Shown here piece after piece: positions 4,357 through 42,948 of a stretch of 44,562 nucleotides of DNA; the first letter of the stretch is position 1, and each line of letters begins with the position of its first letter. A model generated the notes under the pieces. It was not told the DNA's origin. It saw only the letters and a program-made list of their open reading frames with translations, and did no database searches. Origin of the DNA: an uncultured Pelagibacteraceae bacterium (lineage in GTDB: Bacteria > Pseudomonadota > Alphaproteobacteria > Pelagibacterales > Pelagibacteraceae); NCBI GenBank assembly GCA_902553465.1, contig CACDKW010000003.1:1-44562 (forward strand), in the 5' to 3' direction. The position numbers and the translations under genes were made by a program.

Positions 4357-4902
4357 TTAAAAAATATTTTCTAAAAATTTAGGAAGTCCGTCTGGATTGG
4401 TCCACAATCCACTCTTGCCACCTTCTTTGATTAATAATTTAACATTATCAATTTTTAGATGCGGGTTTACAATTTTACTTAAGTCGTAAATAGTAATTAG
4501 TGCTGCATTAACTCCCATAATTGCTTCCATCTCAACACCTGTTTTTGCAACTGCTGAAACAACGCAAAATACTTCTAAAGAAGAATCTTTTTCATTCATG
4601 ATAATTTTAGTTGCAGTGTGATCTATTGGAAGAGGATGACACAAGGGAATTAATTCACTTGTTTTTTTCACACCCAATACAGCCGAAACCTCTGCAAGAG
4701 TTATAGGATCTCCCTTAGGCATTTCTTTATTTTTAATCTTATTAAAAACTTCTTTACCAACATAAATTTTTCCTGACGCAAGAGCTCTTCTAAAGGTTTC
4801 TTTTTTTGAGGAAACATCAACCATATTAAATGAATTTTTTTTAAAAATTTCTTTAGCCCAATCCTCTAAAGTTTTTTGATTAACTATTTTTAATTTTGTC
4901 AT
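4357..4902 (-). CDS. moaC: Cyclic pyranopterin monophosphate synthase MoaC
   Basis: MVDVSSKKETFRRALASG, LIPLCHPLPIDHT, KTGVEMEAIMGVNAALITIYD. Confidence 0.92.
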   Translation of the reverse strand: MTKLKIVNQKTLEDWAKEIFKKNSFNMVDVSSKKETFRRALASGKIYVGKEVFNKIKNKEMPKGDPITLAEVSAVLGVKKTSELIPLCHPLPIDHTATKIIMNEKDSSLEVFCVVSAVAKTGVEMEAIMGVNAALITIYDLSKIVNPHLKIDNVKLLIKEGGKSGLWTNPDGLPKFLENIF

Positions 4903-5115
4903 ATTAACATCTTACATTCTAACAACTTTTTTTAGATCCAAATTTTAAATTAAAAAATAAAAATTATAAACAAAAGTGTAATATTTTATTCAATTTAGAT
5001 ATACAACCTATAGTTTAATTTCTTTTTTAATTTATGAATTTCTCTTTGTTTTCTTGAATATTTAATCATTTATTTAAAGCAAAGATGATTATATGGTTAA
5101 TTAATACTTGTTTAA

Positions 5116-5583
5116 ATGAGCGGACATTTTGGCAAAGAAATTAAAAAAAACATAAATGATGTTAAAGGAAAAGTTAACAGCATGTGTGCTGAATCTGACT
5201 TTTCCCAGTTTTCACAAAGATTGCTGGATTTAGCTACAAAAGGAAGAAATAAATCTAAAGTACTAAAATACTTTATGCATAGCACCGATACTTGGGTGAT
5301 ATTACTAAATGTAATGAAATCTCACTACGACAATCAAAAAATTTCTATAAGTGACTGCTTAAAAGGAACATATTTTACTAAAGAGAGTGGATTGTCATTT
5401 ATAAAAAAAACTTCTGATGGAGAAAATACTTATTTTTCTATAGTTGATGATTTTATTGATAAAAGAAAAAAAGTAGTAAAAGTAAGTGATGAAGTAATTA
5501 ATGAGTTTGAATATTATTGTAATAAAATCTCAATTTGCGTAGATGATCCTGTAAATAAAGGCTCATGTCACAAGATAATTTAA
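5116..5583 (+). CDS. Hypothetical protein, candidate MarR-like winged-helix regulator
   Basis: Intact ORF. The C-terminal half reads like a wHTH with a MarR-style wing (DDFIDKRKKVVKVSDEVINEF resembles D-x-D-x-R-x-x-x-V-x-L-T-x-x-G). Five Cys; located just upstream of aioB. Fold assignment is by eye. Confidence 0.5.
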   Translation: MSGHFGKEIKKNINDVKGKVNSMCAESDFSQFSQRLLDLATKGRNKSKVLKYFMHSTDTWVILLNVMKSHYDNQKISISDCLKGTYFTKESGLSFIKKTSDGENTYFSIVDDFIDKRKKVVKVSDEVINEFEYYCNKISICVDDPVNKGSCHKII

Positions 5584-5613
5584 CTTTAAATCAAAGGTTG
5601 TATAGTATTTTGC

Positions 5614-5665
5614 TATAAGTTTTTTCATGAAACTTTTAGTATAAATTTTTTCATGAATAATATCT
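5614..5665. repeat. Tandem 26-bp direct repeat, possible operator upstream of aioBA
   Basis: TATAAGTTTTTTCATGAA at 5614-5631 and TATAAATTTTTTCATGAA at 5640-5657 (17/18 identical, 26-bp spacing), each ending in the palindrome TTCATGAA. Confidence 0.6.
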
Positions 5666-5742
5666 TTTATAAGTCCTAGATAGAAAACTTTATTTTAGTA
5701 AGATCAATTTAATTTTTAGAAAATGTATTGGAGAAAACAATT

Positions 5743-6261
5743 ATGAAAAAGACTGGTAAAAGATGTCAAAGACTAGTTGATGAAGGAAGAAGATCTTTTT
5801 TAAGAGGATCAGCTGCATCAGTGGGGACTATAGCTGCCGCAACAATTTTACAAACAAAAAAAGTTGAAGCTTCAAATTTTCCTTCAAATAAATTAGCAAA
5901 TGTAAAAGATTTAAAAACAAATGTTCCTTTAGATATAAATTATCCTGACGAAGACTCACCTGGTGTTTTATTGAAATTAGGATCAAAAGTTGAAGGTGGA
6001 GTAGGCCCTGATGGAGATATTGTAGCATATTCAGTTTTGTGTCCTCACAAAGGCTATCCATTGAATTATAACGATGCAGACAAAGTTTTTAATTGTCCTG
6101 GTCATTATTCTGTTTTTGATGCAGAAAAAGGTGGTTTACAAGTTTGGGGTCAAGCTACTCAAAATTTACCCCAATTTAAATTAAAAGTTTCTAGTGGAGG
6201 AGATATATTCGCTGAAGGAGTTGACGAGTTAATTTATGGTCGACTTAGTAATGTTCTATAG
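5743..6261 (+). CDS. aioB: Arsenite oxidase small subunit, Rieske protein with Tat signal
   Basis: Tat motif RRSFLRGSAASVGTIAAATIL; Rieske CPHKGYPL...CPGHYSVFD; 9 bp upstream of aioA. The ORF track starts at TTG 5728, but ATG 5743 has GGAG at 5730-5733. Confidence 0.88.
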   Translation: MKKTGKRCQRLVDEGRRSFLRGSAASVGTIAAATILQTKKVEASNFPSNKLANVKDLKTNVPLDINYPDEDSPGVLLKLGSKVEGGVGPDGDIVAYSVLCPHKGYPLNYNDADKVFNCPGHYSVFDAEKGGLQVWGQATQNLPQFKLKVSSGGDIFAEGVDELIYGRLSNVL

Positions 6262-6270
6262 GAGGGAAAT

Positions 6271-8697
6271 ATGGCATATAAAAGAAATATAAATAAATTA
6301 CCAATAATACCGAAAGGTGCGAAAAAACATAACGTAGTTTGTAATTACTGCATAGTTGGGTGTGGCTATCATGCTTATACCTGGAATGTAGGAGCAGATG
6401 GAACTACTACAAACAATATTTTTGGAGAAAATCTATCTGTTCAACAAGGAGCAGACTCTGATGCTTGGTATTCTCCATCAATGTGGAATATAGTTAAGCA
6501 AAATGGAAAAGATGTAAATATAGTAATAAAACCTGACAAAAATTGTGTGGTAAATAGTGGCTTAGGTTCTCCTAGAGGAGCAAGACAAGGTGAATTAAAT
6601 TATTCACAATCAACTAGTACACAATTACAAAGATTAACTGATCCTCTTGTTTATAGATATGGTCAACTTCAACCAACTTCGTGGGATGATGCTATCGGTT
6701 TAGTAGCAGATGTAACTAAAGCTGTAATTGATGACCAAGGGGAAGATGGTCTTTTTGTATCAGCTTTTGACCACGGTGGAGCCGGTGGTGGATATGAAAA
6801 TACATGGGGAACAGGAAAATTATATTTAGAATCAATGAAAATTAAAAATATAAGAATCCATAATAGACCTGCATATAACTCTGAAGTTCATGGAACAAGA
6901 GATATGGGAGTAGGTGAGTTAAATTATTGTTATGAGGATACTGAGCTTGCTGACACAATAGTTTCAGTAGGAGCTAATTCATTAGAGACTCAAACAAATG
7001 TTTATTTAAATCACTGGGTTCCAAACATGCGTGGAACATCAATGGATAAAAAGAAGAAACAATTACCAGGAGAAGACCATGCTCCAGCTAGAATGATTTT
7101 TGTTGATCCTAGAAGAACGGTGACAATAAATTCAGCAGAAGCAGAAGCGGGAAAAGAAAATGTAATGCATTTAGCGATTAATTCTGGAACAGATTTAGCG
7201 TTGTTCAATGCTTGGATGACTTATATCGACTCAAAAGGTTGGGTTGATAAAGATTTTATTAAGGCAAGCACAATGGATTACGATAAAATGGTTAAAGGAA
7301 ACAAAACTTCATTATCTGAAGCTGCAAAAATTACTGGATTAACTACAAAACAAATCCAACAGTCAGCTGAATGGATTGCAAAACCAAAAGGTAACAAAAG
7401 ACGAAGAACGTGCTTCGTTTACGAAAAAGGTCTGATTTGGGGTAATGATAATTACAGAACTAATTGTTCTCTAACTAACGTTGCAGCAGCAACCGGAAAT
7501 ATTGGAAGACCAGGTGGAGGATGTTGTAGAATGGGAGGACACCAGGAAGGATACTTTAGACCAGCAGATGGTTTTATATGGGAAGGAAATCCTGCTAAAC
7601 CCCCATATGTTGATAAGTTGCTTATAGAAGGAAAAGGTGGAGTGCACCATGTTTGGGCATGTGACCATTACAAAACAACTTTAAACGCTCATGAATTTAA
7701 GCGTGTATACAAAAAAAGAACTGACATAGTTAAAGATGCTATGAATGAAGTACCGCATGGTGATCGTAAAGCATTAGTTAAAGCTATTATGGGTGCTATT
7801 AAAAAAGGTGGTTTATTTTCAGTAGATGTAGATATTATCAAAGCAGACATTGCTGAAGCAGCTCATGTTATTTTACCAGCAGCAACATCTGGAGAAATGA
7901 ACTTAACGTCTATGAATGGAGAAAGAAGAATGAGATTGACGGAAAGATATATGGATCCTCCAGGTCAAGCATTGCCTGACTGCATCATTGCTTCAAAACT
8001 TGGAGAAGCAATGGGTTTCAGTGGTTATGGCTGGAAGACCGAAGAAGATGCTTTTATGGATGGCTACCACAATGGTACTGGAAAAATTGTAACTTATGAT
8101 AGATTAAGAGCTATGGGCAATAATGGTGTTCAAGAACCAGTTATTGATTATAAGGACGGCAAGTTAGTTGGTGTTAAACGTTTATACGCCGATGGAAAAT
8201 TCGACCGTCATGGCAAAGATCATAAAAAACTAATCTTTAAGGTGTCAAAATGGAGAGGTTTACAAGCTCCTGGAAAAGAAGCTCAGAAGAAGAAGTTTAA
8301 ATATTTGATCAATAATGGAAGAGCTAACCATGTATGGCAAAATGCTTATCTAGATAGAAAGAACCAATTTGTTACAGATAGATGGCCTTACCCATTCATT
8401 GAAATGAATCCATCTGATATGAAGAATATTGGAGTATCCGAAGGTGATTTAGTAGAAGTGTTTAATGACGATGGTTCAACACAGGCAATGGTTTATCCTA
8501 CGCCAACTGCAAAAAAGAAAGAAACATTTATGCTTTTCGCTTATCCTACAGGTGTTGTTGGAAACGTAGTAAACGATGGAGTAAACGAAGTAATTATTCC
8601 AAACTATAAACAAACTTGGGCAAATATAAGAAAATTAGCTAACAAACCATCTGGTGTTAACCACGTTAGCTTTAAGTCAAAGGAATACAAAATATAA
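6271..8697 (+). CDS. aioA: Arsenite oxidase large subunit (molybdopterin oxidoreductase)
   Basis: [3Fe-4S] motif VVCNYCIVGCGYHAYTW (C-x2-C-x3-C), HNRPAYNSEVHGTRDMGVGELNYCYED, NIGRPGGGCCRMGGHQEGYFRP, NNGRANHVWQNAYLDRKNQFV; 808 aa; strong SD GGAGG; paired with a Rieske subunit. Confidence 0.9.
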   Translation: MAYKRNINKLPIIPKGAKKHNVVCNYCIVGCGYHAYTWNVGADGTTTNNIFGENLSVQQGADSDAWYSPSMWNIVKQNGKDVNIVIKPDKNCVVNSGLGSPRGARQGELNYSQSTSTQLQRLTDPLVYRYGQLQPTSWDDAIGLVADVTKAVIDDQGEDGLFVSAFDHGGAGGGYENTWGTGKLYLESMKIKNIRIHNRPAYNSEVHGTRDMGVGELNYCYEDTELADTIVSVGANSLETQTNVYLNHWVPNMRGTSMDKKKKQLPGEDHAPARMIFVDPRRTVTINSAEAEAGKENVMHLAINSGTDLALFNAWMTYIDSKGWVDKDFIKASTMDYDKMVKGNKTSLSEAAKITGLTTKQIQQSAEWIAKPKGNKRRRTCFVYEKGLIWGNDNYRTNCSLTNVAAATGNIGRPGGGCCRMGGHQEGYFRPADGFIWEGNPAKPPYVDKLLIEGKGGVHHVWACDHYKTTLNAHEFKRVYKKRTDIVKDAMNEVPHGDRKALVKAIMGAIKKGGLFSVDVDIIKADIAEAAHVILPAATSGEMNLTSMNGERRMRLTERYMDPPGQALPDCIIASKLGEAMGFSGYGWKTEEDAFMDGYHNGTGKIVTYDRLRAMGNNGVQEPVIDYKDGKLVGVKRLYADGKFDRHGKDHKKLIFKVSKWRGLQAPGKEAQKKKFKYLINNGRANHVWQNAYLDRKNQFVTDRWPYPFIEMNPSDMKNIGVSEGDLVEVFNDDGSTQAMVYPTPTAKKKETFMLFAYPTGVVGNVVNDGVNEVIIPNYKQTWANIRKLANKPSGVNHVSFKSKEYKI

Positions 8698-8706
8698 AAA
8701 AATATT

Positions 8707-8738
8707 AGAGGCTAGAAATAAAATTCTAGCCTCTTTTT
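8707..8738 (+). terminator. Rho-independent terminator after aioA
   Basis: Perfect 11-bp stem AGAGGCTAGAA / TTCTAGCCTCT (8707-8717 / 8724-8734) with a 6-nt loop, followed by T-rich tract. Confidence 0.85.
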
Positions 8739-8748
8739 CCCTTTTTTT

Positions 8749-9114
8749 ATGATAAAAAAAACTCTATTAGCTATTCTTTTATTTGTCTCAAATATAAACT
8801 TTTCAATAGCTGATATAGAATCTGGAAAAAAAGTATTCAATAAATGTAAAAGTTGTCATTCAATAAAGCAGGAAAAAAATAAACTTGGACCTCATTTAGT
8901 AAAAATTTTTGGAAGAAAAGCAGGGTCTATAGAAAATTTTAAATACTCTTCTGCTTTAAAAGATTCAGGAATAATTTGGAGCGAAGAAACTTTAAAAGGA
9001 TATTTAGCAAATCCAAGAAAATATATACCAGGAACTAAAATGAGTTTCGCTGGAATCAAAAATACCGACCAATTGAATCACTTAATTGAGTATTTAAAAA
9101 AAGATAGTAATTGA
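8749..9114 (+). CDS. Periplasmic class I cytochrome c
   Basis: N-terminal signal peptide; heme motif CKSCH; GPHLVKIFGRKAG; Met-ligand region PGTKMSFAGI. Confidence 0.88.
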   Translation: MIKKTLLAILLFVSNINFSIADIESGKKVFNKCKSCHSIKQEKNKLGPHLVKIFGRKAGSIENFKYSSALKDSGIIWSEETLKGYLANPRKYIPGTKMSFAGIKNTDQLNHLIEYLKKDSN

Positions 9115-9145
9115 ATAAAAAAAACTTTTATGATTAAATTAAACT

Positions 9146-10135
9146 ATGTTAATTGATCCTTTTAAACGAAAAATTTCATACATAAGAATTTCAGTTACAG
9201 ATAGGTGTGATTTTAGATGTACTTATTGTATGCCTGAAAAAATGCAATTTTTACCCAAGAAAGATTTACTTACATTAGAGGAATTAGAAAGACTAGGTAA
9301 TGTCTTTATAGACCTTGGAGTTAAAAAATTAAGAATTACAGGAGGAGAGCCTCTTGTTAGAAAAGATATTATGAATTTATTTAAAGGTATTGGAAAAAGA
9401 ATTGGAAATGGTTTAGAAGAACTAACATTAACTACTAACGGATCACAGTTAGAAGACTATGCAGATGAACTTTTTGAAATTGGAGTAAGAAGAATAAATA
9501 TTTCATTAGACACTCTAGAAAAAAATAAATTTAAACTTATTACTAGATTAGGTAATTTTGAAAAAGTAATGAGAGGAATTATGAGAGCAAAAAAGACGGG
9601 AATGAAAGTAAAGATTAATACAGTTGCACTTAAAGGGGTTAATGATATGGAGATTATAAAGTTAGTAAAATGGTGTGGTGAAAATCAGTTTAATTTAACT
9701 TTTATTGAAGTGATGCCAATGGGAGAAATTGGAGAAAAAAGAATTAATCAATTTATGCCTTTGACAGAAGTCAAAGAGTTACTCGGTAGTCATTTTACAT
9801 TAAATAATGATCCAATGAAAACTGGTGGACCTGCTACTTATATGCATTGCGAAGAAACAAAACAAAAAATTGGTTTTATAACTCCACTGACACATAATTT
9901 TTGTGAATCTTGTAATAGAGTAAGAATTACCTGCACAGGAAATATGTACATGTGTTTAGGTCAAGAGGATAAAGAAGATTTAAAAAAACCTCTAAGAGAA
10001 AGCAAAAATGATAATGTTTTAAAAGATGTAATTTATAAAGCAATTTTAAGAAAACCAAAAGGACACGACTTTGTAATAGATAGAGAAGAAAAAGAAAAGC
10101 ATGTTCCAAGACATATGAGTGTCACTGGCGGATAA
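9146..10135 (+). CDS. moaA: GTP 3',8-cyclase MoaA (radical SAM)
   Basis: [17 protein letters not shown] radical-SAM motif, [14 protein letters not shown]-terminal cluster [14 protein letters not shown]-terminal GG. Confidence 0.93.
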
Positions 10136-10186
10136 ATCAGAAATTCATAACTTTCATTTAAATATAAAATAATATGTATTTTTCTT

Positions 10187-11023
10187 ATGGATAAAATTTT
10201 AAGTGAAAGTGAAGTAGAGAATTTTAAAAAGGATGGGGCAGTATTTTTAAAAGGAAAATTTGATACTAGCTGGATAAAAAAACTTCAAAAAGGCATAGAA
10301 AAAGATATAAAAAATCCAAGCCCAAGATTTAAATCTCATACATTAGAAAAAGGTGCTCCGGCTTATTTAGAAGATTATTGGACTTGGCACTTAGTACCAG
10401 AATTTAAAGATTTTGTATTCAATTCACCCTATGCAAAAATAGCATCAGAGTTAATGTCTGCAAAAAAAATAAATCTTGTTATGGATAATTGGTTTTTAAG
10501 AGAAGGTGGATCTAAATCTAAAACTCCCTTTCATCATGATGTTAGTTATTTTGACATGGAGGGCACGATGTGTGTTCTTTGGCTACCACTTCAACCAAGC
10601 AAAAAAGATGAGGGTGTTGCTTGGGTAAAAGGATCACATTTATGGAATAAATTATTTTTAAGAGTTCTCTTTAAAGATGGTCACAAGATAGAAGGTGACG
10701 AATGCATAATTAATGGAAAAAAATATGAAACTCCTCCAGATATTTTAGGAAATAAAGAGAAATATGAATTTTTAAATTGGGATTGTGATTTGGGAGACTG
10801 TGTAATTTTTGACATGAGAACACTTCATGGTGCTCTTAGCCCATCTATACCAAACAAAACGTTAAGTCGTTATACATTAAGAGTAGCAAAAGAAGATGCA
10901 AAAATAAGTTATATTGGAGATTGGACTAGTTATAATTATAGAAAAGCCATGCAAGACGCTGGATATAAAAATGGCGACCCTTTAGGGGGCGAAATGTTTC
11001 CGACTTTATATGAAGCCATCTAA
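10187..11023 (+). CDS. Phytanoyl-CoA dioxygenase (PhyH) family protein
   Basis: FFKKDGAVFLKG-like N-terminus, PFHHDVSYFDMEGTMCVLWLPLQPS, KGSHLW, HGALSPSIPNKTLSRYTLR. Confidence 0.8.
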   Translation: MDKILSESEVENFKKDGAVFLKGKFDTSWIKKLQKGIEKDIKNPSPRFKSHTLEKGAPAYLEDYWTWHLVPEFKDFVFNSPYAKIASELMSAKKINLVMDNWFLREGGSKSKTPFHHDVSYFDMEGTMCVLWLPLQPSKKDEGVAWVKGSHLWNKLFLRVLFKDGHKIEGDECIINGKKYETPPDILGNKEKYEFLNWDCDLGDCVIFDMRTLHGALSPSIPNKTLSRYTLRVAKEDAKISYIGDWTSYNYRKAMQDAGYKNGDPLGGEMFPTLYEAI

Positions 11024-11062: not shown

Positions 11063-11386
11063 TTATTTACCAGGTTCTTTATATCCTGAAGCCATTTTCT
11101 TAGCAGTCTCAGCAATTTTATTCAGATCTACATCTTCTAAAATTGTAAAATCAGAAACAGCTCCACTTCCTACGGCAGTCATTGCAGCAGCAGCACATTG
11201 TTCAAAAGTACCTTCTATTTCTGCCATAAAATCATACTTACCTCTTAGTCCAGCATAACGAGTCACTTTTGCTCCAACTGAAGCAGCTAATGCAGATGTA
11301 GCTGCTTTTCTATCTGTACCTGGATTGCTTATAAATCCAGCTAGACCTTTTGCAGTGTAACATCCTAATGTTATAAATTTAGCCAT
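11063..11386 (-). CDS. GYD domain-containing protein
   Basis: TLGCYTAKGLAGF, GLRGKYDFMAEIEG, GSGAVSDFTILEDVD fit the GYD family pattern. Confidence 0.75.
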   Translation of the reverse strand: MAKFITLGCYTAKGLAGFISNPGTDRKAATSALAASVGAKVTRYAGLRGKYDFMAEIEGTFEQCAAAAMTAVGSGAVSDFTILEDVDLNKIAETAKKMASGYKEPGK

Positions 11387-27400: not shown

Positions 27401-27736
27401 TTAATTTACTTTACCAAGTAAATTTACAATTAAGACTCCTGCTATAATTAAAATAATTCCAATTAAACCATATGCGTTGGGCATTTGATTATATTTAACA
27501 ATCCCAAAAATTAGTATTGATGCAACTGTAACTGCACTGTAAGTGGCATATGCAAAACCAACTGGGATTGCAGACATTCCTTTTGCAAGCGAAAACATAG
27601 TTACACACATTAAAAGTATGCAAGCAACAGATGGTGTAAGTTTAGTAAATCCATCAGAAATTTTTGCAAAACTGTTTGCAGTTATTCCACAAGATATTGC
27701 GATAAATAAAAAAATATATCCTGTGAATGGTTTCAT
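27401..27736 (-). CDS. SMR (EmrE-like) small multidrug transporter, copy 1
   Basis: 111 aa, four TM helices; SAIPVGFAYATYSAVTVASILIFG is the SMR signature. Confidence 0.82.
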   Translation of the reverse strand: MKPFTGYIFLFIAISCGITANSFAKISDGFTKLTPSVACILLMCVTMFSLAKGMSAIPVGFAYATYSAVTVASILIFGIVKYNQMPNAYGLIGIILIIAGVLIVNLLGKVN

Positions 27737-28072
27737 TTAATTGGCTTTTCCTAATAAGTTAACTATTAAAACTCCAGCTATAATTAAGGCAAGACCTATC
27801 ATAGTATAAAGATCAGGAATTTGTTTGAATTTATACATTCCTACAATTGTTGTTGCTATAATACAAAGTCCCGCGAATGAAGCATAAGTTATTCCAACAG
27901 GAATTGTTTTCATAACAAGTGACAATGTATACATACAACCAACAATAGTTACTGCAGTAATAACACTAGGCAACAATAGTGTGAAACCTTGTGCACCCTT
28001 AGCAAAACCATTTGATGCAGTCCCCAAAACAACCGCAACAATTAAAATTATATAAGCAGATATATTAGTCAC
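27737..28072 (-). CDS. SMR (EmrE-like) small multidrug transporter, copy 2
   Basis: 111 aa, four TM helices; KTIPVGITYASFAGLCIIATTIVG; both copies end GVLIVNLLGK(V/A)N. Confidence 0.82.
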   Translation of the reverse strand: MTNISAYIILIVAVVLGTASNGFAKGAQGFTLLLPSVITAVTIVGCMYTLSLVMKTIPVGITYASFAGLCIIATTIVGMYKFKQIPDLYTMIGLALIIAGVLIVNLLGKAN

Positions 28073-32648: not shown

Positions 32649-34013
32649 TTATTTTTTTGATTGATCTAAAAAAACTTTTGAAGAGTCATCCATCGCTGTT
32701 GCCCATGGCGTATGATGAACTGGGGCAATAGACCCTGTAACAGGCGAAGAAAAAGATTTATTTCTATAAGTCATAATATCTTCTACTTTATGGTGTTCCC
32801 ATTCTTTAAAATGTTTTCTAATTAACTCAAAATCGATTTTTGGATAATCTGATAACCCATGCAATTCTTTAGTATATTCTGTTTGAAAATCTATCATTTG
32901 ATCTGGGTTTTCCAATTTTTCTTCCATTGCAACCCACTTGTTTATATCTTTTTCTATTTCTGAACCATTTGGAATTTTAATTTTTCCCATTATTACATCT
33001 CTTGCATACCAAGCCTGACAGTCAAACATATTAAAAGTATGAAATTGATCTTGCATGCCCAAGTAAAGTAATTTGTGATTATCTTGCCACACAACACCTT
33101 TATATAGTTTTGGAGGATATAATCTGTTTCTAGTTTTAAGTTTAAGGTCTTCAGTTAAAAAAGGAAAGTGGTGAAGGTAACCAGAACAAAGAATTACAGC
33201 ATCAGCTTCTTGTTTGTGGCCATCTTTAAAGATTGCTTTATTTCCTTCTAATCTATCTAAATAATGTACCTCTTTTACTCCATTAGGCCATTTAAATCCC
33301 ATTGGGTTATTTCTGTAACCTATAGTTACACTTTTAGCTCCATACTTGTGACATTGAAGAGCAACATCTTCAGCTGAATAACTACTTCCTAAAACAATAA
33401 CATTTTTTCCTCTAAATTCTTCTGCATCTCTAAAATCATGTGAATGCATTATTCTGCCTGGAAAAGATTTCATTCCAGGATATTCTGGAATAAAGGGAAC
33501 AGAAAAATGTCCCGTGGACACAACCACATAATCAAAAACATCTTTTGAAAATTTATCATTTTTTTTATCATGATGAGTTATATTAAAATTTTTTCCATTG
33601 AAAACTACACTAGTAACACTAGTATTAAATTTCACCTTTTTTTTTAAATTACCTTTTTTCGCTCTTCCAGTTATATAGTCATATAAAACTTCTCTCGGTG
33701 GAAAAGATGGAATTGGTTTCCCAAAATGTTCATCAAATGAATAGTCGGCAAATTCTAAACACTCTTTAGGACCATTTGACCAAAGATATCTATACATACT
33801 ATTGGGAACAGGGTCACCATATTGATCAGATCCAGTCCTCCAACTGTAATTCCATAATCCACCCCAATCTTCCTGTTTTTCAAAGCAAATTATCTCTGGT
33901 ATTTTTTCACCTTTCTTTTCAGCTTGTTCGAAAGCTCTTAACATCGAAAGACCACAAGGCCCTGTACCAATAATAGCTACTTTTGTCATTGAATTCTTCT
34001 CATCTAAAAACAA
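32649..34013 (-). CDS. tmm: Flavin-containing monooxygenase, probable trimethylamine monooxygenase; start may be the internal ATG of MTKVAIIG
   Basis: VAIIGTGPCGLSMLRAFEQAEKKGEKIPEIICFEKQEDWGGLWNYSWRTG; FMO motif FPGRIMHSHDF; VIVLGSSYSAEDVALQ. Confidence 0.85.
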   Translation of the reverse strand: MFLDEKNSMTKVAIIGTGPCGLSMLRAFEQAEKKGEKIPEIICFEKQEDWGGLWNYSWRTGSDQYGDPVPNSMYRYLWSNGPKECLEFADYSFDEHFGKPIPSFPPREVLYDYITGRAKKGNLKKKVKFNTSVTSVVFNGKNFNITHHDKKNDKFSKDVFDYVVVSTGHFSVPFIPEYPGMKSFPGRIMHSHDFRDAEEFRGKNVIVLGSSYSAEDVALQCHKYGAKSVTIGYRNNPMGFKWPNGVKEVHYLDRLEGNKAIFKDGHKQEADAVILCSGYLHHFPFLTEDLKLKTRNRLYPPKLYKGVVWQDNHKLLYLGMQDQFHTFNMFDCQAWYARDVIMGKIKIPNGSEIEKDINKWVAMEEKLENPDQMIDFQTEYTKELHGLSDYPKIDFELIRKHFKEWEHHKVEDIMTYRNKSFSSPVTGSIAPVHHTPWATAMDDSSKVFLDQSKK

Positions 34014-36022: not shown

Positions 36023-37708
36023 CTAAAACAAGCCCTCAATTTCGCTTTTGTTATTTAGCTTTATTGAATCAGCAGCTGGAATCTTTGGTAGTCCAGGCAT
36101 AGTCATGATAGCACCACAAATTACCACAACAAATTCAGCTCCCGAGGAAAGCCTAACTTCTCTTACCGGAAGAACATGACCTGAGGGAGCACCTTTTAAA
36201 CTTGGATCCGTTGAAAAACTATATTGAGTTTTGGCTACACAAATAGGAAGATTGACATAACCTTTAGCTTCAAAATCTTTGAGCTGATCTCTAATTTTTG
36301 TATCAGCCACTACTTCACTGGCATGATAAATTTCTTTAGCAATTGTTTCTATTTTTTTAAATAGTGAAGTTTTATCTTCATATAAAAATTTAAATTTATT
36401 TTCATTTTTATCGCATATTTCAGAAACGTTTTTTGCAAGCTCTTTAGTCCCTTCACCACCATTAGACCAATGAGTACATAAAGATGCTTTTACTTTAAGA
36501 TTATTACAGAAATCAATTAATTTATTTACTTCATTATCTGTATCAGTAATAAAATGATTTACTGCTACTGCTACAGGCAAATTAAATTTTTTTATATTAT
36601 TTATATGTCTTTCTAAATTTACTAAACCTTTTTTAAGAGCATCTACATTTTCTTTTTTAAGGTCTTCTTTTTTTACTCCACCGTGCATTTTTAAAGCTCT
36701 AATTGTTGCGACAATTACAACACAATCAGGTTTTAAACCAGATTTTCTACACTTTATATCTAAGAATTTTTCTGCACCTAAATCAGCACCAAATCCTGCT
36801 TCTGTAACTACATAATCAGATAATTTTAATCCTGTTTTTGTGGCAATAACCGAATTGCAACCATGTGCAATATTTGCAAATGGACCACCGTGTATGATAG
36901 CTGGATTATTTTCTAATGTTTGAGTGATGTTGGGTCTAATGGCATCTTTTAACAAAACAGTCATTGGCCCTTGTGCATTTAAGTCTTTTGCATAAATAGG
37001 CTTTTTATCTCTGGTGTAAGCAATAGTAATATTTCCAATTCTATTTTCTAAATCTTTTAAATCATTCGATAAACAGAAAATAGCCATGATTTCTGAAGCT
37101 ACAGTAATATCGAAACCATCTTCTCTAGGATAACCATTTGCAACTCCTCCAAGATTTATATTTATTGATCTTAGGGATCGATCATTCATATCCATTACTC
37201 TTTTCCAAACCACTCTTCTAACATCAATGTTTAATTTATTTCCCCAGTAAATATGGTTATCAATTAAAGCAGCCAGAAGATTGTGAGCTGAAGTTATTGC
37301 GTGAAAATCACCAGTAAAATGTAAATTAATTTGTTCCATTGGAACAACCTGAGCGTATCCCCCTCCAGCAGCACCACCTTTCATTCCAAAAGATGGTCCT
37401 AAACTTGGCTCTCTAAGACAAACAATAGATTTTTTTCCTATTTTATTTAAACCATCACACAAACCAACAGAAGTTGTTGTTTTTCCTTCTCCAGCCGGTG
37501 TAGGTGTAATCGCTGTGACTAAAATTAATTTTCCGTCTTTTTTATTTTTTAAAGTTTCTAAATATTCAGGTTTAATTTTTGCAATATATCTTCCAATTGG
37601 GCTATAAACTTCTGATTTGTCAGGAACATTTATTCCATCAAGAATTTCTTGGATGGGTTTCATTTTAGCAGCTCTTGCTATTTCTATGTCAGATTTGACT
37701 TTACCCAT
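36023..37708 (-). CDS. fhs: Formate-tetrahydrofolate ligase
   Basis: [65 protein letters not shown]. Confidence 0.95.
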
Positions 37709-37841: not shown

Positions 37842-39098
37842 ATGCAAAAATATTCTGTATTTAGCCTTGTTAAAAACGCTTTTGGTGGACATAAAGACTG
37901 GGAAGTTGCCTGGAAAGATCCAACACCTAAATCTGAATATGATGTTATTATAATAGGTGGCGGAGGCCATGGTTTGGCTACAGCATATTACTTAGCAAAA
38001 GAACATAATATTACAAAAGTTGCCATTATTGAAAAAGGATGGATAGGAGGAGGCAATGTTGGAAGAAACACCACAATAATCAGATCAAATTATATGCATG
38101 ATGAAAATGGTTTGTTTAGTGAATTCGGTATGAATTTGTGGAGAAACATGAGTCAGGATTTAAATTTTAACGTAATGTTTTCTCCAAGAGGAATAATTAA
38201 TCTTGCACATTCCGATGCACAAATGAATGTTTATTCTAGAAGAGGAAATTCAATGCGTTTGAATGGAATTGATGCAGTTTTACTAAATAGAGAAGAAGTT
38301 AAAAAAATTATTCCTATGGCAGATTTTTCTGAAAATGTAAGATTTCCAATATTTGGTGGATTGATGCAACCAAGTGCAGGAACAGCTAGACATGATGCAG
38401 TTGCTTGGGGGTATGCACGTCAAGCAGACTCGATGGGTGTAGATATTATTCAAAATTGTGAAGTCACAGGTTTTGATGTTTCTAAAGGAAAAATTTTAGG
38501 AATAAGAACTTCAAAAGGAGATATTAAAGCAAAAAAAATTGGTTTATGTGTTGCAGGAAGTACAAATGTTTTAGCAGAAAAATTAAATATGACATTACCA
38601 ATAGAAACACATCTTTTGCAAGCATGCGTATCAGAACCAATTAAACCAATATTAGACAATGTTGTAACTTTCGGTGCAGGACATTTTTACTGTAGCCAAT
38701 CTGATAAAGGTGAAATGGTTATGGGAGGCGATCTTGATGGATATAACAGTTATGCACAAAGAGGAAATCTTCCAACATTACAACATGTTCTAACTGAAGG
38801 AATAGCAATGTTTCCGTTTCTAAGTAAATTAAAAATGCTTAGAACATGGGGAGGAATTATGGATATGTCTATGGATGGGTCACCTATTATTGATAAAACA
38901 CATATTGAAGGTTTATATTTAAATTGTGGATGGTGTTACGGAGGATTTAAAGCAACCCCCGCATCTGGATGGACATTTGCTCATACAATTGCTCAAGACA
39001 AGCCTCACGAATTAAATGCAGGCTATAGTTTAAATAGATTTAGTACCGGACATTTAATTGATGAAAAAGGCCTTGGAACAAAAACTTGGATTTCTTAA
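37842..39098 (+). CDS. soxB: Sarcosine oxidase beta subunit
   Basis: YDVIIIGGGGHGLATAYYLAKEHNITKVAIIEKGWIGGGNVGRNTTIIRSNYM; first gene of the heterotetrameric operon. Confidence 0.93.
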   Translation: MQKYSVFSLVKNAFGGHKDWEVAWKDPTPKSEYDVIIIGGGGHGLATAYYLAKEHNITKVAIIEKGWIGGGNVGRNTTIIRSNYMHDENGLFSEFGMNLWRNMSQDLNFNVMFSPRGIINLAHSDAQMNVYSRRGNSMRLNGIDAVLLNREEVKKIIPMADFSENVRFPIFGGLMQPSAGTARHDAVAWGYARQADSMGVDIIQNCEVTGFDVSKGKILGIRTSKGDIKAKKIGLCVAGSTNVLAEKLNMTLPIETHLLQACVSEPIKPILDNVVTFGAGHFYCSQSDKGEMVMGGDLDGYNSYAQRGNLPTLQHVLTEGIAMFPFLSKLKMLRTWGGIMDMSMDGSPIIDKTHIEGLYLNCGWCYGGFKATPASGWTFAHTIAQDKPHELNAGYSLNRFSTGHLIDEKGLGTKTWIS

Positions 39099-39365
39099 AT
39101 GTTATATATTAAATGCCCACACTGTGGATTAAGATCTCAAAATGAATTTTCATATGGTGGTGATGCAACAGTCAAAAGACCAGAATTAAACAAAGAAGTC
39201 TCCGATCAGAATTGGGATAATTTTGTTTATTTACGAAAAAGTCCAAGAGGAAAACATCTAGAATTATGGCAGCATATTTCAGGGTGTAGACAATGGATAA
39301 AGGTTGAAAGAGATACATTAACCCATGAAATATTTAAAACATTAAAAGCAAACGAAGAATTATAA
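39099..39365 (+). CDS. soxD: Sarcosine oxidase delta subunit
   Basis: IKCPHCGLRSQNEFSYGGDA, HISGCRQWIKVERDTLTHEI. Confidence 0.93.
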   Translation: MLYIKCPHCGLRSQNEFSYGGDATVKRPELNKEVSDQNWDNFVYLRKSPRGKHLELWQHISGCRQWIKVERDTLTHEIFKTLKANEEL

Positions 39366-39367
39366 AG

Positions 39368-42364
39368 ATGTCAGAGAATTATAGATTAGAAAAAGGTGGA
39401 CTAATAAATAGAAATAAAAAAATTAAATTTAAGTTTAATGGAAAAAAATATTTTGGTTATGAGGGAGATACTTTAGCTTCCGCTTTACTTGCTAATGGAG
39501 TTCATCTAGTTGGTAGAAGTTTTAAATATCATAGACCTAGAGGATTTTTTGGAGCAGGCGTGGATGAACCATATGCAATAGTTCAAATGAATAGAAATAA
39601 CGAAGTCGACCCTAACGTAAGAGCTACGGAACAAGAATTATTTGAGGGTTTAGAAGCTAAAAGTGTTAACTGTTGGCCAAATGTAAATTTTGATATTGGC
39701 GCAATCAATAATTTTTTAAATAAATTTTTTCCTGCAGGTTTTTATTACAAAACATTTATGTGGCCAAAAAGCTTTTGGTATAAAATCTATGAGCCAATAA
39801 TTAGAAAGGCTGCAGGTTTTGGGGCAGCATCTATTAAGCATGATAAAGAGAGATATGAACACAAATATGAATATTGTGATCTTTTAATTGCAGGAACAGG
39901 ACCTTCTGGGCTAGCAAGCGCTTATGCAGCAGCACAAAATGGAGCAAGAGTTATTTTAGCTGAAGATAAATCTAGAATTGGTGGAAGTCTTCTTGTTAAC
40001 GAAGTTACTATTGGCAATCAAAGCGGACAAGAGTGGGCGGAAAAAATAATATCCGAACTCAAATCAATGCCAAATGTAATTATAAAAAATAGATCTCAAG
40101 TTTTTGGTTATTATGATCACAACATGCTTGTTATGTCAGAAAGAGTGAGCGACCATTTGCCAAAAACTGATAAATATACCCCCAAACAAAGGTTGTGGTA
40201 TATACGTGCAAAAGAAGTTATCATTTCTTCCGGATCAATTGAAAGACCTTTAGTTTTTGGAAATAACGATACACCAGGAGTAATGCTTTCTTCTGCAGCA
40301 AAAGAATATTTAAAAGTTTATGGGGTTTTGGTTGGTAAAAAACCGATTATATTTACAAATAATGACAGTGGATACGAAACTGCAATAGAATTTAAAAAAA
40401 ATGGAATTGATCCTCTAATTTTAGATTCAAGAAAAAATCCTGATTCTGAAATTATAAAAGAGGCTAAAGATTTAGAAATAAGCATAAAGTTTTCTTATGT
40501 TGTTGTAGCCGCTAATGGTTATAAAAAAGTCAACTCCGCAAATATTGCAAAAATTTCTGATGATAAAAAAATCATTAGTAATATTGAAAGTATAAAATGT
40601 GATTGTATTTGTGTTTCAGGGTTTTGGACACCAACAATTCACTTAGCTTCTCAATCAGGAAATAAAACTAAATTTAATGAAGAAATAGATGCGTTTGTTC
40701 CAAGCAAATCAAAACAGAAAGAAACAACACTTGGATCTGCAAATGGCGTTTTTACATTAGAAGAAACTTTAAAAACATCTTTTGAAAAAGGAAGCGAGTT
40801 ATCAAAACAAATAACTAATAAAGAAAATAAAGTTTCAATTCCAACTGTTGTAGAAAAAAAATCATCAAAGCATGATAAATTTTGGTGTGTACCATTGCCT
40901 GAAGGTAAAAATTATAAAAGATTTTTAGATTTTCAAAACGATGTTTCTGTTTCTGATATACAACTTGCTCTAAGAGAAGGTTATAGATCAATAGAGCATG
41001 TTAAAAGATATACTACTTTAGGTATGGCAACAGACCAAGGTAAGACAAGTAATCTTAATGGATTACAATTAGTGTCTGAAGTTGAAAATAAAGTAGTACC
41101 TCAAGTGGGTCATACAACTTTTAGACCTCCTTATACACCAGTTGCAATAGGAGCAATTGTTGGAAGAGAAGTTGGAAAACATTCTAAACCAACAAGAAAA
41201 TCGCCAATGCATTATTGGCATGAAAAAAATAATGCAGTCTTTGTAGATGCAGGTGTTTGGTTGAGACCAAGATATTATAAACAAGGAAATGAAAACTTAT
41301 TTGAGGCGTCTAAAAGAGAAGCAAAAAATGTCAGACAAAACGTTGGGGTTTGTGACGTGACTACCTTAGGAAAGATTGACATCAAAGGACCTGATGCAGC
41401 TGAATTTTTAAATAGAGTTTACACAAATGCTTGGCTTAAGCTACCCGTTGGCAAAGCAAGATATGGCGTAATGTTAAGAGAAGATGGAATTGTAATGGAT
41501 GATGGTACAACAACAAGAATTTCGGAAAACCATTATCATATGACAACCACAACTGCTCAAGCTGCAAACGTTTTATCTCATTTAGAATATTATTTACAAT
41601 TAGTATGGCCAGAATTGAATGTAAATGTAGTTTCAAGTACTGAACAGTGGGCAGGTGCAGCAATAGCTGGACCAAAATCAAGAGATGTGTTGCAAAGACT
41701 GTTTCCAGATTTAGATGTTTCAAAAGAAGGATTACCTTTTATGGGATATATGGAAGGAAATTTATTTGGAGTTAATGCAAAAATTTTTAGAATTTCATTT
41801 TCTGGCGAACTTGCTTATGAAGTAAACGTCGAGTCAGACAATGGTAACTTCATGTGGGAAAAAATAATGGAGATTGGAAAAGAGTTTAATATTCAACCAT
41901 ATGGAACAGAAGCATTATCAACATTAAGAATCGAAATGGGTCATGTTGCTGGTTCTGAATTAGATGGACGTACAATTCCCTATGATAATTCATTAGAGGG
42001 ATTGGTTAGTAAGAAAAAAGATTTTATTGGAAAAAGATCTTTAAGTAAAAAAGCATTTATAGAACCTGACAGACAAAAAGTTGTTGGTGTTGTTCCATTA
42101 GACAAAAAAACAAGTATCCCAGAAGGATCATATATAGTTAAAGATGCAAAAGCGAAACTTCCTAATCCAAAATTAGGTCATGTATCTGCTTCGTGTTGGA
42201 GTGTTGAATATGATAATCCATTTTCACTCGCAATTATTAAAGATGGAAAAAATATGATTGGACAAAAGCTTTTTGCAATGTCTCCTTTAAAAAATAAAAC
42301 AATCCCTGTTGAAATAGTATCATCCCATTATGTTGATCCCAAAGGAGAAAGGGTTAGATCATGA
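39368..42364 (+). CDS. soxA: Sarcosine oxidase alpha subunit
   Basis: FEGDTLASALLANGVHLVGRSFKYHRPRG-like N-terminus, LIAGTGPSGLASAYAAAQNGARVILAED, GcvT-like C-terminal domain. Confidence 0.94.
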   Translation: MSENYRLEKGGLINRNKKIKFKFNGKKYFGYEGDTLASALLANGVHLVGRSFKYHRPRGFFGAGVDEPYAIVQMNRNNEVDPNVRATEQELFEGLEAKSVNCWPNVNFDIGAINNFLNKFFPAGFYYKTFMWPKSFWYKIYEPIIRKAAGFGAASIKHDKERYEHKYEYCDLLIAGTGPSGLASAYAAAQNGARVILAEDKSRIGGSLLVNEVTIGNQSGQEWAEKIISELKSMPNVIIKNRSQVFGYYDHNMLVMSERVSDHLPKTDKYTPKQRLWYIRAKEVIISSGSIERPLVFGNNDTPGVMLSSAAKEYLKVYGVLVGKKPIIFTNNDSGYETAIEFKKNGIDPLILDSRKNPDSEIIKEAKDLEISIKFSYVVVAANGYKKVNSANIAKISDDKKIISNIESIKCDCICVSGFWTPTIHLASQSGNKTKFNEEIDAFVPSKSKQKETTLGSANGVFTLEETLKTSFEKGSELSKQITNKENKVSIPTVVEKKSSKHDKFWCVPLPEGKNYKRFLDFQNDVSVSDIQLALREGYRSIEHVKRYTTLGMATDQGKTSNLNGLQLVSEVENKVVPQVGHTTFRPPYTPVAIGAIVGREVGKHSKPTRKSPMHYWHEKNNAVFVDAGVWLRPRYYKQGNENLFEASKREAKNVRQNVGVCDVTTLGKIDIKGPDAAEFLNRVYTNAWLKLPVGKARYGVMLREDGIVMDDGTTTRISENHYHMTTTTAQAANVLSHLEYYLQLVWPELNVNVVSSTEQWAGAAIAGPKSRDVLQRLFPDLDVSKEGLPFMGYMEGNLFGVNAKIFRISFSGELAYEVNVESDNGNFMWEKIMEIGKEFNIQPYGTEALSTLRIEMGHVAGSELDGRTIPYDNSLEGLVSKKKDFIGKRSLSKKAFIEPDRQKVVGVVPLDKKTSIPEGSYIVKDAKAKLPNPKLGHVSASCWSVEYDNPFSLAIIKDGKNMIGQKLFAMSPLKNKTIPVEIVSSHYVDPKGERVRS

Positions 42365-42948
42365 CATCAGTATCTGCTTTAAATCATGTTTATAAAATAG
42401 GTCTTTTTGGAAATCATGAAAATAAAAATGAAGAAAATTTACTAAAAGTTTTAGAAATTAAAAATTTACTTATTGTGCAAATAGTTCAGTATAAAAATTC
42501 TACTATTTCATTTGAAAATATTGATATTGATAACCTAAAATTAAAAAATGAACCAATGAGTGTAGTTAGTAACTCTAATACAAGAATATTATGGAATGGT
42601 CCAAAAAATTGGCTTTTAATCTCTACAAAAAAAGATTTACTTAAAGATATTTCAAAAGTTTTCAAAGAAACAGATTTTGCTGTAACAGACTTGTCTCATT
42701 CACGAGCTATAATTGAAATCGAAGGACCAGACGCAATAGAAGTTTTAAAAAAAGGTTGTCCATTTAATTTTAATATTTTAGAAAAAAATAAATCAATAAA
42801 TTCAACATACAATGGTATTGCGTTTACAGTTGATATGCTTGACGACAATCCTAATAAAATCAGACTGTTTGCGCTAAGAAGTTTTGGAGAGTCCTTTTAC
42901 CATTCCATTACAGACGCATCTCTAGAATTTGGTTATCGAGCCCTTTAA
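42361..42948 (+). CDS. soxG: Sarcosine oxidase gamma subunit
   Basis: RILWNGPKNWLLIS, DLSHSRAIIEIEGPDAIEVLKKGCPF, RSFGESFYHSITDASLEFGY; overlaps soxA by 4 bases. Confidence 0.9.
   Translation: MTSVSALNHVYKIGLFGNHENKNEENLLKVLEIKNLLIVQIVQYKNSTISFENIDIDNLKLKNEPMSVVSNSNTRILWNGPKNWLLISTKKDLLKDISKVFKETDFAVTDLSHSRAIIEIEGPDAIEVLKKGCPFNFNILEKNKSINSTYNGIAFTVDMLDDNPNKIRLFALRSFGESFYHSITDASLEFGYRAL

Follow-up and report, generated by a model that had tools for sequence, protein, structure and literature searches.

SAR11 bacteria dominate the surface-ocean bacterioplankton and have streamlined genomes. Arsenic metabolism has already been described in this group by Giovannoni et al. 2019, who treated arsenic as an energy-related substrate for the same genus in the Sargasso Sea, with strain HTCC7211 both demethylating arsenic and having an arsenate reductase (PMC6426599). 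The activities reported are demethylation of arsenic, arsenate release, and the reduction of arsenate by an ArsC of the LMWPc type, whereas the SAR11 locus analyzed here encodes a putative arsenite oxidase; the string "aio" is absent from the text of that paper (PMC6426599). The enzyme family is itself well known, and the nearest solved structures for both subunits are those of NT-26 AioBA (Pseudorhizobium banfieldiae, plasmid NT26_p1, PDB 4aay, with 4aay_A matching AioA and 4aay_B matching AioB), followed by other AioBA structures. In NT-26, the gene order is aioB-aioA-cytC, with aioXSR upstream and a gephyrin-like gene (moeA/glp) after cytC, while Dongia-type Rhodospirillales (uncultured Dongia) and a further genome, G508, have the order aioBA-cytC-moaA. 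The closest characterized relative of AioA is IdrA, and open-ocean "aioA-like" genes have been reinterpreted as idrA (PMC8692401). The IdrABP1P2 system has homologous large and Rieske subunits, and moaA and a cytochrome c can be found downstream of its genes, but two cytochrome c peroxidase genes adjoin idrAB in all idr loci (PMC8692401). With alternative gene content at a fixed site between conserved flanks, the locus also resembles the replacement flexible genomic islands known from aquatic prokaryotes, the contents of which are swapped through homologous recombination (a concept cited in PMC7318151).

The window, i.e. the whole 44,562-nucleotide (44.6-kb) contig that was analyzed, belongs to a genome assembly of 745 kb that is 58% complete. 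A sequence-only reading of this contig had proposed a Tat-targeted Rieske subunit located 9 bp upstream of an AioA-type molybdopterin oxidoreductase, and the coordinates, motifs, and profile scores all agree with it. The small subunit gene, aioB, lies at 5743–6261 on the forward strand when read from its first ATG, or at 5728–6261 if translation begins from a TTG, and its product carries the Tat motif RRSFLRG together with the Rieske motifs (C-x-H/C-x2-H) CPHKG and CPGHYS. In profile searches, AioB scored 200.2 bits against TIGR02694 (cut-off 95.65). Separated from the intact aioB by the 9-bp spacer, aioA (6271–8697, forward strand) is likewise intact and encodes an 808-residue large subunit scoring 1155.5 bits across the full length of TIGR02693 (cut-off 359.05), with the next-best family at 186 bits. 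The two motifs singled out in the sequence-only reading were both recovered, as CNYCIVGCGYH at residues 24–34 and RMGGHQEGY at residues 420–428, and the cluster cysteines of the C-x2-C-x3-C pattern are residues 24, 27, and 31. A chance match is excluded for aioBA. By family, conserved active site, and tree (see below), the locus is predicted to encode a true AioBA arsenite oxidase. As in NT-26, the SAR11 locus has the order aioB-aioA-cytC, the same active-site residues, and a Rieske subunit with a Tat signal, and its AioA is 65% identical to that of NT-26.

Overall, the cassette spans approximately 4800–10200 and contains, in order, an orphan ORF, aioB, aioA, cytC, and moaA. The orphan ORF (5116–5583, forward strand, 155 amino acids) had no family match in profile searches and no homologue in other aio loci, and its AlphaFold model was unusable (pLDDT 41). 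Compared with the most divergent copy of the cassette, from the single-cell genome SAG-MED20, it gave a pN of 0.063 and a pS of 0.069, and therefore no sign of purifying selection, albeit from small counts. It is common to the carriers and could either encode a rapidly evolving protein or be no gene under constraint at all. Downstream of aioA, cytC (8749–9114, forward strand) encodes a predicted class I cytochrome c with a signal peptide and a CKSCH heme motif (PF00034, 38 bits; NF043008, 112 bits, which is under the cut-off of 240). It is probably the electron acceptor of AioBA, and is 39% identical to the cytochrome following aioA in NT-26 and 53% identical to that of Dongia. The last gene, moaA (9146–10135, forward strand; TIGR02666, 370 bits), encodes a putative GTP 3',8-cyclase for molybdenum cofactor synthesis and is 53–61% identical to the moaA found beside aio in several alphaproteobacteria. 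The gene order is thus that of the Dongia-type and G508 loci, for which the identities are about 49–53% for cytochrome c, about 58% for MoaA, and about 67–71% for AioA, although none of those loci is found at the SAR11 moaC site. In contrast to NT-26, cytC is followed by moaA in the SAR11 locus and aioB is preceded by the orphan ORF; no aioXSR-type regulators were detected within the window, where the upstream neighbors are the orphan ORF and moaCDE. Between aioA and cytC is a terminator-like hairpin (8707–8734, forward strand) having 11 perfect pairs and a T-rich tail, which could attenuate cytC-moaA expression. A pattern scan of the region identified five such hairpins versus 1.7 expected, which is not evidence of function, and a promoter scan yielded no excess relative to shuffled sequences.

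In all 19 aio-less congeners in which the moaC locus was examined, a native moaA directly adjoins moaC and is 70–100% identical to a reference SAR11 copy. The native and cassette MoaA proteins are only about 33% identical (31–35%). The native gene was found in none of the six carriers of the cassette, these genomes being incomplete and its absence elsewhere in them provisional, while five of them yielded no MoaA other than that of the cassette (in the sixth, AG-414-M02, the contig ends before moaA). Displacement of the native moaA at this site itself is direct. For two of the six aio-less loci inspected in full, genes for a sulfite dehydrogenase and a cytochrome c come after the native moaA. 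This sulfite dehydrogenase is SorT-like, scoring 536 bits and thus just under the cut-off of 570; in these loci, the SorT-like gene and the small cytochrome c beside the native moaA lie at 5459–7033 (L199) and 5923–7491 (L200), making them a second molybdoenzyme-plus-cytochrome pair using this site. No sulfite dehydrogenase was found in the carriers, and one complete aio-less genome was also without it. Between moaC on one side and phyH, a GYD-domain gene, and an aldehyde dehydrogenase gene on the other, the site thus holds either the aio cassette or moaA, the latter alone or together with a sulfite dehydrogenase and a cytochrome c. With alternative gene content at one site between homologous flanks, the cassette fits the description of a replacement island, differing from those described in that a molybdoenzyme is swapped together with its own cofactor gene and in that one haplotype has apparently spread recently. 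Removal of the resident moaA would explain, we infer, why the cassette includes one of its own.

In a scan of a collection that represents each bacterial or archaeal species by a single genome, we identified five near-identical AioA matches (99–100% amino acid identity), all in single-cell genomes of Pelagibacteraceae/Pelagibacterales: AG-365-F20, AG-414-B08, AG-414-M02, AG-426-I13, and SAG-MED20. The same genes occupy the same site in all five, for a total of six carriers with the window, and these count as different species because the collection has one genome for each. Among genomes drawn from the genus and the family, most other hits to AioA were FDH-like proteins of roughly 25% identity, and aio was present in 2 of 399 genomes of the genus, the window's own included. 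An arsenite oxidase had been called unusual for a streamlined heterotroph, which this count both supports and sharpens. Mapped in 100-base bins, the identical tract has its left edge at about 4700–4800, inside the 5' part of moaC (4357–4902, reverse strand; TIGR00581, 150 bits), and its right edge at about 10150–10250, at the start of the phyH-like dioxygenase gene (10187–11023, forward strand; PF05721); both of these genes are host alleles. Between 4903 and 10135, which includes the orphan ORF, aioB, aioA, cytC, moaA, and the spacers, the window is 98.6–100% identical at the nucleotide level to the four AG single cells, in contrast to mostly 76–96% for the flanking genes and about 65% for the GYD-domain gene. 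Relative to SAG-MED20, the four named genes are 98–99.5% identical, the segment 4903–5727 is about 93% identical, and the flanks are 72–85% identical. Synonymous divergence from the four genomes is 0.1–0.4% in the cassette (pooled differences of 1/980, 4/980, 1/769, and 1/884) versus 26–45% in the flanks, and for SAG-MED20 it is 3.4% (33/980) versus 57%. The cassette is thus 17–343 times less divergent than its flanks (Fisher P < 1e-79 for each comparison, treating sites as independent). Synonymous sites and spacers show the same degree of conservation, and protein-level selection therefore cannot explain this identity. Instead, a single haplotype appears to have spread recently between Pelagibacter species, which would account for it.

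The simplest route for this spread would be homologous recombination in the flanks, a process that is reported to be widespread in SAR11 (PMC7542561). Two observations favor it: the edges are sharp and fall within flanking genes that the genomes share, and neither an integrase nor a transposase nor a tRNA gene was detected near the cassette. Boundary repeats were limited to short imperfect ones, none of which occurs at both edges, and six peptide patterns recovered no AioA relatives from IMG/VR viral contigs and hence no sign of phage carriage. Separately, we observed that the GYD-domain gene by the right edge (11063–11386) shares only about 47% amino acid identity between carriers, although its neighbors are far more alike, as if this gene had also been exchanged. 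Elsewhere in the window are a trimethylamine monooxygenase gene (32649–34013; NF058570, 747 bits, cut-off 675), two adjacent SMR-family small transporter genes that are perhaps a pair (27401–28072; the one scanned was below all curated cut-offs), and a sarcosine oxidase-like gene group (37842–42948), the first gene of which encodes a beta-family subunit (TIGR01373, 677 bits). Beside this group is a formate-tetrahydrofolate ligase-like gene (36023–37708), as read from the sequence.

Since TIGR02693 also accepts an IdrA-type protein (425.6 bits), the family match alone is not decisive, and given the reinterpretation of marine aioA-like genes mentioned above, an iodate reductase (IdrAB) or other AioA-like reductase had to be considered, particularly because cytochrome c and moaA genes can also follow an idr locus. 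Several features separate the window from that enzyme, however. The Azonexus IdrA-type gene adjoins two cytochrome c peroxidase genes, but none were found within the window. We also aligned 91 proteins, including 86 AioA (the window among them) and two IdrA-type proteins. The arsenite-pocket residues, which we take to be H195, E203, R419, and H423 in A. faecalis numbering, correspond to window AioA residues 197, 205, 420, and 424 and are present in 86 of 86 AioA, as are the three cluster cysteines. At the E203 position, both IdrA-type proteins carry D, and RGGGHQC/R stands in them for the RMGGHQE of AioA; the window carries the AioA form at both of these discriminating sites. Its identity to AioA proteins is 65–74%, the closest found outside of SAR11 being that of G589 (74%), versus 29% to the Azonexus IdrA-type protein. 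A phylogeny had been suggested as a check on the assignment, and in trees built without ArrA and ArxA, the window falls within the AioA clade, with the SAR11 sequences forming one fully supported group on a long stem inside alphaproteobacterial AioA, without a resolved sister group, and with the IdrA-type proteins branching apart. Neighboring genes, pocket residues, and tree all being against it, the iodate reductase reading was dropped as very improbable.

A different concern was that the near-identity of the cassette might be an artifact of cross-contamination or chimeric assembly among single-cell genomes. Contamination would also yield near-identical copies across genomes, and AG-365, AG-414, and AG-426 all come from one project. 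However, every genome has the cassette on a contig that continues, at one or both of its ends, into divergent alleles belonging to that genome, and SAG-MED20, a separate submission, has a copy that is 1% diverged at the same site. There is no breakpoint around 5–10 kb, which would have undone the claim of a SAR11-like context; separate assemblies of other genomes gave the same arrangement, each with divergent flanking alleles of its own, and the MoaC and aldehyde dehydrogenase flanking the cassette have close homologues (about 78–94% amino acid identity) across the genus. As independent genomes show the same arrangement, the chimera was dropped from further consideration as extremely improbable, and the SAR11 context is real. 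The alternative that carries somewhat more weight, while still unlikely, is that the cassette is kept mainly as a moaA substitute following recombination, with aioBA as a passenger or acting upon another substrate such as antimonite. Carriers are rare, and with no other MoaA found in five of them, loss of the cassette would remove molybdenum cofactor synthesis. On the other hand, pN is well below pS relative to SAG-MED20 for both aioA (0.004 and 0.031) and aioB (0.003 and 0.069), and therefore both genes are maintained by purifying selection, with active-site residues intact; nor would a passenger explain a rapid spread.

We consider it quite probable that the locus is a true AioBA within a cassette having its own moaA, imported long ago from another alphaproteobacterial lineage and spread recently by recombination that displaces the resident moaA, with As(III) oxidation passing electrons to cytochrome c. 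Counting against this are the lack of aioXSR beside aio, the unconstrained orphan ORF, and a total of only six carriers. The composition of aioA (36% GC, 21.5% GC3) is near that of its neighbors, unlike the two relatives' aio loci that were checked (63–65% GC, with G508 at 63%). Taken with the long stem, this composition points to an old entry into an AT-rich lineage, long enough ago for the cassette to acquire its composition, and to a later, recent spread among Pelagibacter; a possible alternative origin is a donor that is AT-rich but unsampled. The later, very recent transfers between species would proceed by recombination in the moaC-side and phyH-side flanks, with the incoming genes, as one unit with a matching moaA, displacing the resident moaA and, where present, the SorT-like sulfite dehydrogenase and its cytochrome c. 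Periplasmic As(III) oxidation feeding cytochrome c is the most likely function, based upon the established biochemistry of the AioBA family. The Tat signal of AioB would export the folded AioBA heterodimer, As(III) would be oxidized to As(V) at the molybdenum center of AioA, and electrons would pass from the [3Fe-4S] cluster to the Rieske cluster, the adjacent cytochrome c, and a terminal oxidase. In waters of high As:P, the benefit could be additional energy, the removal of arsenite, or both, although the energy yield from arsenite may be small, as seawater arsenite is only nanomolar.

The sampling sites are consistent with such a setting. AG-365 derives from BATS at 100 m, AG-414 from GEOTRACES GA02 at 24.7 N and 119 m, and AG-426 from GA03 at 38.3 N and 91 m (plate table, PMC6122165), which places the four single cells having a traceable site in the subtropical/NW Atlantic, a region of documented high As:P. 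As/P can exceed 50 in the Sargasso Sea, and over the North Atlantic, arsenite concentrations range as high as 6 nM (PMC6426599). These four cells from three sites, plus SAG-MED20, whose name suggests the Mediterranean, suggest a link between the carriers and phosphate-poor water, where their gene content suggests that they could draw electrons from arsenic. Searches of nine Pelagibacter genomes returned nothing over cut-off for ArsC (PF03960) or ACR3 (TIGR00832); the PF03960 result does not bear upon SAR11 arsenate reductase because the latter is of the unrelated LMWPc type (PMC6426599). Our search of the open-access literature, with subscription papers outside its coverage, turned up no description of a SAR11 arsenite oxidase. 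With the enzyme family already known, what is new is its host, its context, and its spread. A broader proposal, which we hold tentatively and lean slightly against, is that As(III) oxidation is spreading through the Pelagibacter species of phosphate-poor waters via a self-contained replacement cassette that supplies the enzyme, an acceptor cytochrome, and a cofactor gene. If true, SAR11 populations would both release and re-oxidize inorganic arsenic, and the open-ocean As(III)/As(V) cycle would be closed. Because SAR11 is already known in arsenic metabolism and carriers have a predicted As(III) oxidase gene, biological arsenite oxidation in the open ocean becomes directly testable. More generally, a few species of streamlined SAR11 carry a lithotrophic-type molybdoenzyme, in a metabolic gene block apparently caught moving between species with its edges still sharp, at a site where a molybdoenzyme and its cofactor gene are swapped together.
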